The notes below the pieces were generated by a model. It was not told the origin of the DNA, searched no databases, and saw only the letters and a program-made list of their open reading frames with translations. Shown here piece after piece: positions 9,039-50,621 of a DNA stretch of 64,000 nt. The translations under genes were made by a program, and so were the position numbers. How positions within the stretch are numbered: the stretch's first letter is position 1; each line of letters opens with the position of its first letter. The stretch lies in NCBI RefSeq assembly GCF_001598815.1, contig NZ_BCZQ01000006.1, forward strand, positions 124,001 through 188,000, in the 5' to 3' direction. Source of the stretch: Sphingopyxis terrae subsp. terrae NBRC 15098. Lineage in GTDB: Bacteria > Pseudomonadota > Alphaproteobacteria > Sphingomonadales > Sphingomonadaceae.

Positions 9039-9125
9039 TGTTCCCCGGCCAAGGCCGGGGTCCAGAGTGTCGAGCGCTGATGTTGATACTGTAAAGCCCT
9101 GGCCCCCGGCTTTCGCCGGGGAACA
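9039..9125. repeat. Second paired palindrome family (CCCCGGC type)
   Basis: A segment starting TGTTCCCCGGCCAAGGCCGG (9039-9067) is followed by an imperfect inverted copy ending CGCCGGGGAACA (9098-9125). Each half is itself a hairpin. The layout resembles the 29-bp repeats around the GIY-YIG gene at 48.8 kb (CCCCG stem, then CCAG/CCAGG). Together with the preceding repeat it fills most of the 334 bases between ccmB and rplA. Confidence 0.75.
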
Positions 9126-47103: not shown

Positions 47104-48756
47104 GTGACCGTGAAAAAAGCATCTGACCTGTTCATCGAATGCCTGGAAGAAGAAGGCGTCGAATATATCTTCGGCGTTCCGGGCGAGGAAAATCTCGACT
47201 TTCTCGACAGCCTGTCGCGTTCGCAAAAAATCAAGCTGATCCTGACCCGCCATGAGCAGGGGGCGGGCTTCATGGCCGCGACCTATGGCCGTCACACCGG
47301 CAAGACCGGGGTGTGCCTTGCGACGCTGGGCCCTGGCGCGACCAATTTCGTGACCGCGGCGGCTTATGCCCAGCTTGGCGGCATGCCGATGATGATGATC
47401 ACCGGGCAGAAACCGATCAAGAAATCGAAGCAGGGCCGGTTCCAGATCCTCGACGTCGTCGCGATGATGGGACCGATCACCAAATATACGCACCAGATGG
47501 CCTCGTCGGACAATATCCCGAGCCGCGTGCGCGAGGCCTTTCGCCTGGCCGAGGAAGAAAAGCCCGGCGCGGTGCATATCGAACTGCCCGAGGATATCGC
47601 CGACGAACATACCGAAAGCCTGCCGCTGAAGCGCAGCCATTCGCGCCGCCCGACCGCCGACGTCAAATCGATCCGCGAGGCGGTGAAGGCGCTCGAAAAT
47701 GCGAAGGCGCCGGTACTGGTAATCGGCGCGGGCGCGAACCGCACGATGACCAGCCGGATGCTGCTGCAGTTCATCGAAAAGACCGGCATCCCCTTTCTGA
47801 CCACCCAGCTCGGCAAGGGCGTGATCGACGAACGGCATCCGAAATTCCTCGGGTGCGCGGCACTGTCATCCGGCGATTTCGTGCACCGCGCGGTCGAGGC
47901 GTCGGACTGCATTGTCAACATCGGTCACGATGTGATTGAAAAGCCCCCCTTCTTCATGCAGCCCGGCGGGCCCACCGTTATCCATGTGTCCACCAAGACC
48001 GCCGAGGTCGATCCGGTCTATTTCCCCGGCATCGAAGTCATTGGCGATATTGCCAATGCGATCTGGCAGATGAAGGAGGATATCGTGCCGAACGGCGGCT
48101 GGTCGTTCGACCATATGCTCGCCTATCGCAAGGCCGAGGTCGAGCATACCGCCCCGCTCGCCGCCGACACGCGCTTCCCGATCTTTCCGCCGCATCTGGT
48201 GCAGCAGGTCCGCGACGCGATGCCCGACGACGGCATCATCTGCCTCGACAATGGCGTCTACAAGATCTGGTTCGCGCGCGGCTACACCGCCTACCGCCCG
48301 AACACCGTGCTGCTCGACAATGCGCTCGCGACGATGGGCGCAGGCCTGCCCAGCGCTATGATGTCGGCGATGGTCTACCCCGACCGCAAGGTCATGGCGA
48401 TCTGCGGCGACGGCGGCTTCATGATGAACAGTCAGGAAATGGAGACCGCGGTTCGCCTGGGGCTCAACCTGACCGTGCTGATCCTCAACGATTCAAGCTA
48501 TGGCATGATCCGCTGGAAACAGGCGAATATGGGGTTCAAGGATTGGGGGCTGACCTATGGCAACCCCGATTTCGTCAAATATGCTGAAAGCTATGGCGCG
48601 CACGGCCACCGCGTCGAAAGCGCGGCGCACCTCAAGGAACTTCTTGCGCATACGCGCGATACTCCCGGTGTGCACCTGATCGATTGCCCAGTAGATTATT
48701 CGGAGAATGACCAGATTTTGAACATCGACATCAAGAAGCTGTCGAAGGAACTCTGA
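47104..48756 (+). CDS. Acetolactate synthase large subunit-like TPP enzyme
   Basis: The 550-residue protein has the three-domain TPP fold: the N-terminal catalytic Glu in TRHEQGAGFMA (about residue 51), a central domain, and the C-terminal TPP/Mg motif ICGDGGFMMNSQEMETA followed by NDSSYGMI. It resembles catabolic or stand-alone acetolactate synthases; no small subunit gene is nearby. It probably condenses pyruvate or a related 2-oxo acid. The GTG start at 47104 follows AAGGGGGCGA, and a second GTG two codons later is possible. An aldehyde dehydrogenase gene follows after the GIY-YIG element. Confidence 0.85.
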   Translation: MTVKKASDLFIECLEEEGVEYIFGVPGEENLDFLDSLSRSQKIKLILTRHEQGAGFMAATYGRHTGKTGVCLATLGPGATNFVTAAAYAQLGGMPMMMITGQKPIKKSKQGRFQILDVVAMMGPITKYTHQMASSDNIPSRVREAFRLAEEEKPGAVHIELPEDIADEHTESLPLKRSHSRRPTADVKSIREAVKALENAKAPVLVIGAGANRTMTSRMLLQFIEKTGIPFLTTQLGKGVIDERHPKFLGCAALSSGDFVHRAVEASDCIVNIGHDVIEKPPFFMQPGGPTVIHVSTKTAEVDPVYFPGIEVIGDIANAIWQMKEDIVPNGGWSFDHMLAYRKAEVEHTAPLAADTRFPIFPPHLVQQVRDAMPDDGIICLDNGVYKIWFARGYTAYRPNTVLLDNALATMGAGLPSAMMSAMVYPDRKVMAICGDGGFMMNSQEMETAVRLGLNLTVLILNDSSYGMIRWKQANMGFKDWGLTYGNPDFVKYAESYGAHGHRVESAAHLKELLAHTRDTPGVHLIDCPVDYSENDQILNIDIKKLSKEL

Positions 48757-48777
48757 CGGTCGCGAACTCGCTTTTCT

Positions 48778-49144
48778 TGTCATCCCCGCGAAAGCGGGGA
48801 CCCAGGAGTTGGATGAGCCGAACCTATCATGTTTATATCCTCGCCAGCGGGCGCAACGGAACGCTCTATACCGGTGTGACGGGAGATCTGGCGCAGCGGA
48901 TGGAACAGCATCGCGACGGCGAAGGTTCAAAGTTTACGACAAAATACGGCGTTACTCGTCTGGTTCACATCGAAGCATTTGCCGACGTGAACGCAGCGAT
49001 CGCCCGCGAGAAAGCTGTAAAGAAATGGCGCCGGGCATGGAAACTGGAACTCATCGAACGGGGCAATCCGCAATGGCTCGACCTATATGATCGGATTAAC
49101 GGCTGAGCATGTCGCCCTGGGTCCCCGCTTTCGCGGGGATGACA
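48778..49144. mobile_element. 367-bp element: GIY-YIG gene between perfect 29-bp inverted repeats
   Basis: The left end 48778-48806 (TGTCATCCCCGCGAAAGCGG then GGACCCAGG) is exactly repeated inverted at 49116-49144. Each end is also a hairpin (CCCCGC/GCGGGG around GAAA or TTTC). The only content is the GIY-YIG gene, which starts six bases after the left end and stops nine bases before the right end. Confidence 0.8.
48813..49106 (+). CDS. GIY-YIG nuclease-like protein
   Basis: The 97-residue protein is a stand-alone GIY-YIG domain, with VYI (7-9), YTG (19-21), a likely catalytic Arg near residue 29 (LAQRMEQH) and a likely metal Glu66 (AREKAVKKW). Such single-domain proteins are predicted nickases or DNA-structure nucleases and are often misannotated as UvrC. 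The ribosome site AGGAG straddles the inner edge of the left repeat, four bases before the ATG, so the repeat supplies part of its translation start. Confidence 0.88.
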   Translation: MSRTYHVYILASGRNGTLYTGVTGDLAQRMEQHRDGEGSKFTTKYGVTRLVHIEAFADVNAAIAREKAVKKWRRAWKLELIERGNPQWLDLYDRING

Positions 49145-49187
49145 ATGGGGGGTGGCGGAGCGCGCGCCAGCATGTTGGAGAATGATT

Positions 49188-50621
49188 GTGAAACTCAAGG
49201 ACGTCTACCCGCTCTATCTCAACAACAAGGCGGTGCAGCCGAACACCGACCTCAAGGTGATCGACAAATTCACCGGCGAAATCGCTTTCCGTACCGCACT
49301 GGCGACCCCCGACGTCATCGATGAAGCCATCGCCGGCGCGGTGCGCGCCGCCGAGCCGATGGCGCGGCTCGCGAGTTACGAGAAGCAGGATGTCCTCAAT
49401 CATTGCGTCGCGCGCTTCAAGGAACGCTTCGACGAGCTTGCCTATGCGCTGTGCGTCGAAGCGGGAAAGCCGATCGCCGACAGCGAGGGCGAGGTCGGGC
49501 GCCTGATCGACACCTTCCGCATCGCCGCCGAAGAGGCGACGCGCAACTATGGCGAGATCCAGCCGCTCGACATATCGGCGCGCGCCAAGGGCTATATGGG
49601 GATGTGGAAGCGGGTGCCGATCGGCCCGTGCAGCTTTATCTCGCCGTTCAATTTTCCGCTCAACCTTGCGGCGCACAAGATCGCGCCGGCGATCGCGATG
49701 GGCTGCCCCTTCGTGATGAAGCCCGCCTCGATGACGCCGCTGGGCGCGATTATCATGGGCGAGGTGCTCGCCGAGTGCGACATATTGCCCGAAGGCGCGT
49801 TCAGCATCCTGCCCGCGAGCCGCGACGGCGCCGATCTGTTCACCACCGACGAACGGCTGAAATTGCTGAGCTTCACCGGCTCGCCCGGCGTCGGTTGGGA
49901 CCTCAAGGCAAAGGCCGGCAAGAAGAAGGTCGTGCTCGAACTCGGCGGCAATGCCGCCGTGATCGTCGACAAGGACGCCGACCTCGATCATGCGCTCGCG
50001 CGGATCATCTTCGGTGGCTATTACCAGTCGGGGCAAAGCTGCATCCATGTGCAGCGCGTCATCATCCACGCCGACATCTACGACCGTTTCCGCGACATGC
50101 TTGCCGCCAAGGTGAAGACGCTCAAATCGGGCGATCCCAAAAAGCGCGACACCTTCATCGGCCCGATGATTTCGGCAAAGGAAGCAGAGCGGCTCAAGGG
50201 CTGGATCGACGACGCGGTCGCGGCCGGGGCGACGTTGCTCGCCGGTGGCGGTTGCGAGGGCAATATGCTCGAGGCGACGCTGCTCGAAAATGTGCCCGAG
50301 GGGGCGGACGTGGTGCGCGAGGAAGCCTTCGGCCCGGTGGTCGTCCTGTCGCGCTTCACCGACTGGAACGCCGCACTGGCGGAGGTCAACGACAGCAAAT
50401 TCGGCTTGCAGGCCGGGATCTTCACCCGCGACATTCACAAGATATTGGAAGCGTGGGACGACCTCGACGTCGGCGGCATCGTCGTCAATGACGTCTCCTC
50501 CTACCGCGTCGACAATATGCCCTATGGCGGGGTCAAGGATTCGGGCCTCGGGCGCGAAGGCATCCGTTTCGCGATGGAAGATATGAGCGAAATCCGCAAT
50601 CTGGTGATCCGGCGCGTCTGA
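49188..50621 (+). CDS. Aldehyde dehydrogenase family protein
   Basis: The 477-residue protein has the ALDH motifs: SFTGSPGVGWDLKAKAGKKK, catalytic-base Glu in VLELGGNAA, nucleophile Cys in YYQSGQSCIHVQR and the NAD-site region EEAFGPVVVLS. It oxidises an aldehyde with NAD(P). The GTG at 49188 is chosen because GGAG lies seven bases before it; an ATG two codons earlier is too close to that site. The preceding acetolactate-synthase-like gene suggests a joint pathway, now separated by the GIY-YIG element. Confidence 0.9.
   Translation: MKLKDVYPLYLNNKAVQPNTDLKVIDKFTGEIAFRTALATPDVIDEAIAGAVRAAEPMARLASYEKQDVLNHCVARFKERFDELAYALCVEAGKPIADSEGEVGRLIDTFRIAAEEATRNYGEIQPLDISARAKGYMGMWKRVPIGPCSFISPFNFPLNLAAHKIAPAIAMGCPFVMKPASMTPLGAIIMGEVLAECDILPEGAFSILPASRDGADLFTTDERLKLLSFTGSPGVGWDLKAKAGKKKVVLELGGNAAVIVDKDADLDHALARIIFGGYYQSGQSCIHVQRVIIHADIYDRFRDMLAAKVKTLKSGDPKKRDTFIGPMISAKEAERLKGWIDDAVAAGATLLAGGGCEGNMLEATLLENVPEGADVVREEAFGPVVVLSRFTDWNAALAEVNDSKFGLQAGIFTRDIHKILEAWDDLDVGGIVVNDVSSYRVDNMPYGGVKDSGLGREGIRFAMEDMSEIRNLVIRRV

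Follow-up and report, generated by a model that had tools for sequence, protein, structure and literature searches.

The window, by which we mean the whole stretch of DNA analysed (64 kb), contains a small nuclease gene packed between two inverted copies of a REP. The gene (48813..49106, plus strand) runs from an ATG at 48813 to a stop codon that ends at 49106 and encodes a 97-aa GIY-YIG nuclease; to its left lies a CGTC-type REP (48777..48806, plus strand), assigned from its sequence, its inverted-repeat match and its fold and by comparison of its form with excerpts of PMC3733652, and to its right lies the identical REP inverted (49116..49145, minus strand), with its tag directed away from the gene. 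Outside the unit, genes for a thiamine-pyrophosphate (TPP) enzyme (47104..48756, plus strand) upstream and an aldehyde dehydrogenase (ALDH; 49188..50621, plus strand) downstream provide the context. The first-pass annotation had placed a lone 97-residue gene between two metabolic genes, 6 and 9 bases from its flanking repeats, with a ribosome site across the inner edge of the left one, and our coordinates agree on each point: the arm-to-gene spacing is 6 nt (left) and 9 nt (right), and a likely ribosome site, AGGAG (48804..48808, plus strand; function predicted from sequence), overlaps the left arm's inner edge. Its exact inverted hairpin repeats also stand, being 100% complementary, 309 nt apart and, for the left arm, foldable, but each is 30 nt long, not 29 bp. 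An exact inverted pair of 30 nt is far beyond chance expectation in 64 kb (4^30).

The left arm consists of a GTC tag (48779-48781), a stem (48783-48789 paired with 48794-48800) around a GAAA loop (48790-48793), and a CCA-type tail within 48801-48806. As single-stranded DNA it forms a 7-bp stem with the GAAA loop at -9.3 kcal/mol (z -3.8), and none of 200 shuffled sequences was equally stable. No T-run follows the right arm in the sequence, and no direct repeat lies beside the outer arm ends, as a target-site duplication would leave there. A longer frame of 109 aa opens within the left arm (window 48777-49106), in which the repeat reads MSSPRKRGPR; REPs can thus cause wrong start calls.

The product of the window gene belongs to the GIY-YIG superfamily, as both its fold and its catalytic-type residues are present. 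Pfam reports only PF01541 (GIY-YIG; E 7.1e-16), and Y8, Y19, R29, H33, E66 and N85, which we take to be the catalytic-type residues of the superfamily, are 99-100% conserved among 159 relatives. The AlphaFold model is confident (pLDDT 91.8, pTM 0.83), and in a Foldseek search of the PDB its sole match at E up to 0.001 was the UPF0213 protein 1zg2, also the best PDB match by sequence (E 1.9e-8); the next structural matches, at E 0.017 and above, were 1ywl and Slx1 entries, the latter with TMq 0.52-0.60. The curated NCBIfam models gave no match to the protein; Rfam, PHROGs and PADLOC likewise gave none.

Eight PF01541 genes, all different, are present in the own assembly, one of them with a frame the size of UvrC. 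Four others, all small, constitute a subfamily here termed A-type (45-49% identical to the window gene), each lying between inverted copies of a different palindrome; a further three, termed B-type, are flanked on both sides or overlapped by palindromes of a CCGTTCG... family. The own genome does not hold several near-identical copies of the unit as a whole, such as an insertion sequence would leave. The repeat itself is scattered: by pattern searches, from which all genome repeat counts derive, the own genome has 34 matches to its core TCCCCGCGAAAGCGGGGA with 2 mismatches or fewer, some of them as inverted pairs (reversed control, 0), and only 9 to the full 27-nt repeat with 3 or fewer, the two arms included; genomic copies of the window-type repeat occur as inverted dimers, 43-51 bp apart. 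A lone palindrome in the window (9105-9120, minus strand) is near to the family that frames another GIY-YIG gene, L002. At the B-type genes L001, L003, L004 and L289, the CCGTTCG-type palindromes at the bounds run partly inside the open frame, and the frame of L001 continues as a single 408-codon open frame into an apparent further gene, presumably for an RNA methyltransferase. Elsewhere, two more GIY-YIG genes, L290 and L295 of genome G003, lie between repeats of the form CGTCATTGCGAG...GCAATC(T)CCAG, a further family that looks widespread.

The association between such genes and inverted REPs is solid. Loci were picked by protein similarity alone: for the genus, the best 93 places of a longer E-value list (one of which, L149, is the same gene as L002), and for other bacteria, 80 loci kept of 565 relatives; loci in which fewer than 120 nt separated the gene from the end of its contig (1/93 and 7/80, respectively) were excluded. 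Within the genus, 87 of 92 A-type genes lie between inverted palindromic arms (29/32 plus 58/60). In a first batch of 30 genus loci, 26 of 29 genes were framed, against 0/30 genes for ParE toxins, which are also small (the 30 include identical copies, L186-L188 and L198-L199), and 4 of 35 neighbouring genus ORFs were framed. In other bacteria, whose individual phylum assignments may be wrong because many records are metagenome bins, 49 of 73 related genes were framed, against 7/1460 random positions and 3/173 neighbouring ORFs; 14 of the 24 unframed loci have a CGTC-type REP to one side or both (background windows, 11/540), and the 10 of 73 loci that have no REP by either test weigh against the explanation favoured below. 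Applied to Y1 transposase genes, the method detected inverted repeats of a different sequence at 11 of 16, and is therefore not tuned to one repeat. The first-pass annotation had asked whether GIY-YIG genes are flanked by repeats more often than other genes, and regarded bare GIY-YIG genes elsewhere as telling against its idea; these counts answer in favour of flanking on both points, and the window unit exemplifies a more general pattern.

Most arms have the published form of CGTC REPs, namely a GTC tag, a stem-loop and a CCA tail. As described in excerpts of a 2013 paper (Di Nocera, De Gregorio, Rocco 2013, PMC3733652), CGTC REPs have a CGTC or TGTC tag, an 8-9 bp stem whose positions 1 and 2 are complementary AT, a loop of 4-5 and a CCA tail, occur mostly as inverted dimers, and have hosts that include sphingomonads; no associated transposase is reported in these excerpts. 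The window arm, TTGTCA-stem-loop-stem-CCCAGG, fits the CGTC/TGTC tag and the CCA tail, and has a 7-bp stem with one AT pair, a loop of 4 and an outer A opposite C; many arms of other bacteria have the full 8-bp stem. Among 272 arms, the stem was clear in 246 and an orientation could be assigned to 239, and the tag faced away from the gene in 215 of these 239. In the oriented arms, the tag was GTC in 155 cases and GTG in 33, and the stem was followed by CCA in 188, fractions that lean upward because tag and tail also served as orientation cues. The GTAG tag of RAYT-type REPs does not characterize these arms.

Nuclease clade and repeat are matched. By protein, the 92 genes of the genus make up nine clades, and by surroundings 18 neighbourhood groups, most clades occupying one conserved neighbourhood, and large clades contain sub-groups with their own repeat (for example, QTYHVY, to which the window gene belongs, and KPGYLYLMAS, both in clade 0). 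Between genes from different neighbourhoods, protein and repeat similarity are correlated (r 0.24 over 3413 pairs; 0 of 1000 shuffles as high), a modest Mantel correlation that depends on the 40 pairs whose proteins are more than 70% identical, in which repeat similarity is 0.84-0.91, compared with 0.41-0.47 below that level. The MHADF clade is clearly present in several neighbourhoods: its proteins, 78-95% identical across groups, occur in five neighbourhood groups (compared over flanks of about 440 nt) and have the same kind of repeat in four; one MHADF-type gene, L246, is unframed. A test for concerted change of the two arms (centred) was mixed, with 2 of 5000 shuffles as high for clade 3, 46 of 5000 for clade 2, and 402 or more of 5000 for the other seven groups, and no conclusion here rests on it.

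Across 80 genomes, presence of a clade goes with a higher count of its matching repeat (P 3.7e-4, 2.3e-5 and 5.2e-4; window clade, 0.01), also when the gene's own two arms are subtracted (P 8.4e-4, 6.6e-5 and 9.5e-4), the link being weakest for the window clade (P 0.027), which shares genome G063 with the FGPT clade. These statistics ignore phylogeny and multiple testing, the FGPT copy of G078 (with an in-frame stop) was scored absent, and genes not fetched may be mis-scored as absent; 4 of 12 non-matching clade-repeat tests also fell below 0.05, two of them involving T1 and TF, which overlap. The three repeats counted together have a median of 36 in the 64 genomes with an A-type model match (E up to 1e-12; some matches may be B-type) and of 5.5 in the 16 without (P 4.6e-5). 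Four genomes, G009, G071, G032 and G046, carry 74, 85, 28 and 25 of the three repeats and have a UvrC-sized gene as their only GIY-YIG gene; this counts against the explanation favoured below, and would be explicable by loss after spread, or equally by another spreader.

At the window locus itself the constraint on the arms is extreme. In nine genomes with the intact unit at the TPP-ALDH junction, the 27-nt left repeat is on average 99.2% identical and the right repeat 100%, compared with 43% and 40% for the outer flanks and 57% for third codon positions of the gene; in eight of the nine, the arms are perfect inverted pairs. The first-pass annotation had proposed a minimal mobile element, and as a currently mobile element the unit is not borne out: it is intact at the same junction in at least nine of 80 genomes, and most clades keep to one conserved neighbourhood. 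Empty sites between the same neighbours, the absence of which (with gene and repeat always at one locus) the annotation had counted against mobility, do exist: among 30 loci upstream of the ALDH gene (own genome included), 2 have an intact gene, 2 a remnant and 26 no GIY-YIG gene (one of the 26, L048, does not adjoin the TPP enzyme). The window unit thus looks vertically inherited and often lost, rather than recently hopping. The two remnants (L064 and L067) are a C-terminal piece and an internally shortened copy that keeps both arms. By eye, the TPP-ALDH gap (window 48757-49187; L039-L068) holds palindromic pairs of several unrelated families in different relatives, and appears to be a hot spot for such elements.

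Comparison with a close relative, G077 (97-98% DNA identity around the site), reveals exchange of repeat families. There, a CCGTTCG-type pair replaces the window unit; at a second site, G000 and G077 carry pairs of different families; and at a third, the B-type gene L003 is missing in G077. Repeat families thus change from relative to relative while the slots stay fixed. The comparison also shows two repeat pairs and one B-type gene to be shared. G077 has no A-type model match and one B-type gene; L020 is present in G077, divided over two stretches. Between the close relatives compared, no clean REP insertion with defined ends was found. In a separate comparison, G003:C3:212000-219000 was ruled out as the counterpart of the G004 element L232.

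The association of gene and repeats, their clade-specific pairing, the link to repeat abundance, the extreme constraint on the arms at the window locus, the intact catalytic-type residues, the lack of a Y1 transposase in the own genome and the family exchange at the same site between close relatives are, we think, best explained by a REP system built on a GIY-YIG nuclease, a reading that is probably correct. Stated more broadly, and with slightly less assurance, we favour the view that the CGTC superfamily of palindromic repeats has its dedicated partners and spreaders among GIY-YIG nucleases and not among HUH transposases in several bacterial phyla, with nuclease clade and hairpin evolving as matched pairs, which would make them a second, independent REP solution. 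Of the first-pass proposal that a GIY-YIG nuclease mobilises REPs, the part that survives is the association with clade-specific repeats, and the part that does not is hopping of the unit itself at present.

GIY-YIG nucleases are expected to cut by hydrolysis. In the mechanism we propose, the enzyme would recognise its own CGTC-type hairpin when this is extruded as a hairpin or cruciform, and would probably bind it and cut at or near the base of the stem, where tag and tail lie. The cut could initiate copying of REPs and inverted REP pairs into intergenic sites by way of host replication and repair, perhaps (at a guess) with DNA inserted through gene conversion or a replication-coupled copy, and mobilisation of REPs by the nuclease is in this sense likely. 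A gene placed between two copies of its own target would keep gene and target matched. The overlap of the left arm with the ribosome site suggests that the gene may, in addition, be regulated by the protein or by the hairpin.

The most serious alternative is that the nuclease acts on the repeats without spreading them, in maintenance or containment, opening or resolving REP cruciforms, with the flanking pair as its sensor or operator and the repeats spreading otherwise. The association and arm-constraint data fit this equally well, as do inheritance of most clades at one place (like a host gene), the overlap of the left arm with the ribosome site, a fold resembling Slx1, and the four genomes that retain repeats without the gene; however, genomes with a clade have a larger rather than a smaller number of matching repeats, the MHADF clade has moved between neighbourhoods, and a gene missing in many relatives (16 of 80 lack an A-type model match) would be odd for maintenance, so that we consider this account unlikely, if still a substantial contender. 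It is considerably less probable that the arms serve the gene simply as hairpins for regulation or termination, in autoregulation, and that their likeness to scattered REPs is secondary: a conserved arm with its hairpin over the ribosome site would suit such a role, but the tag and tail outside the stem are common to distant bacteria, no T-run follows the right arm, and matching repeats are scattered in genomes as inverted pairs, in numbers that follow clade presence.

Two further accounts are each very improbable. According to one, the genes merely land in repeat-rich intergenic gaps, as might be supposed from the palindromic pairs seen by eye in the TPP-ALDH gap of many relatives and from the framed ORFs (4/35) neighbouring the genus genes; the controls largely refute it (ParE, 0/30 with some identical copies, and 3/173 neighbouring ORFs, against 87/92 and 49/73), and such hitch-hiking genes would not be expected to have clade-matched repeats and arms under constraint. 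According to the other, the repeats are mobilised in trans by a Y1-HUH transposase (RAYT) encoded elsewhere in the genome and the GIY-YIG gene has no part in it, RAYTs being the known partners of REPs (excerpts of PMC3733652). Y1_Tnp (PF01797), however, is present in 15 of 80 genus genomes and was found neither in the own genome, with which this account is incompatible unless the enzyme was lost recently, nor in the repeat-rich G006, G009, G041, G063, G065, G070 and G072; where Y1 genes are present, the inverted repeats at the 11 of 16 testable copies (L340, L343-L351 and L353) are unrelated in sequence, many of the form AATTACGGTGACAG....

A REP system based on a GIY-YIG nuclease bears on an existing question: REPs of the CGTC type, which are common across alphaproteobacteria and found in further phyla, were reported in 2013 to lack a known enzyme (excerpts of PMC3733652). 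GIY-YIG nucleases are the best candidate for that enzyme, and a matched nuclease opens the question to direct testing, for which a protein of 97 aa and a hairpin of 30 nt suffice, the many clade-repeat pairs forming a ready panel for specificity tests. If true, at least two unrelated nucleases have given rise to REP partnerships, and spreading repeats in bacteria would be added to the roles of the GIY-YIG superfamily. Among the matches listed from the open PMC literature (which leaves preprints and most subscription journals outside), no paper linked GIY-YIG nucleases to REPs; the 2006 GIY-YIG survey (PMC1564403) contains no word starting with 'palindrom', and the 2025 RepRanger paper none starting with 'nuclease' or 'transposase'.

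Several known systems resemble parts of this one. The window protein shares with the UPF0213 proteins (BH0048, 1zg2; EF2693, 1ywl), its best PDB match in sequence and fold, a single GIY-YIG domain of about 97 aa, and with Slx1, a branched-DNA nuclease by entry titles, the GIY-YIG fold; Slx1, by contrast, is a larger, eukaryotic protein that has Slx4 as its partner. In excerpts of PMC1564403, homing endonucleases of the GIY-YIG type and Penelope elements likewise tie a GIY-YIG nuclease to the spread of DNA, but involve introns, DNA-binding domains or a reverse transcriptase, whereas here a bare 97-aa domain lies between hairpins. The repeats resemble the CGTC REP superfamily in tag (CGTC/TGTC), stem-loop, CCA tail, inverted dimers and sphingomonad hosts, and differ from its description in the excerpts of PMC3733652 in the window stem (7 bp, theirs 8-9 bp), in the GTG tag of some clades, and in framing a GIY-YIG gene where that text reports no associated transposase. 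The closest parallel is the RAYT/REPtron and REPIN system, in which, too, a small nuclease gene lies between inverted REPs, several paralogues per genome have different repeats, gene positions are mostly conserved, and matching repeats are scattered as inverted pairs. In its workings the window unit would parallel a RAYT/REP pair, yet it falls outside that system, since both nuclease and repeat class differ: GIY-YIG (PF01541) instead of Y1-HUH (PF01797), and repeats of GTC/CCA form instead of GTAG-tagged REPs.
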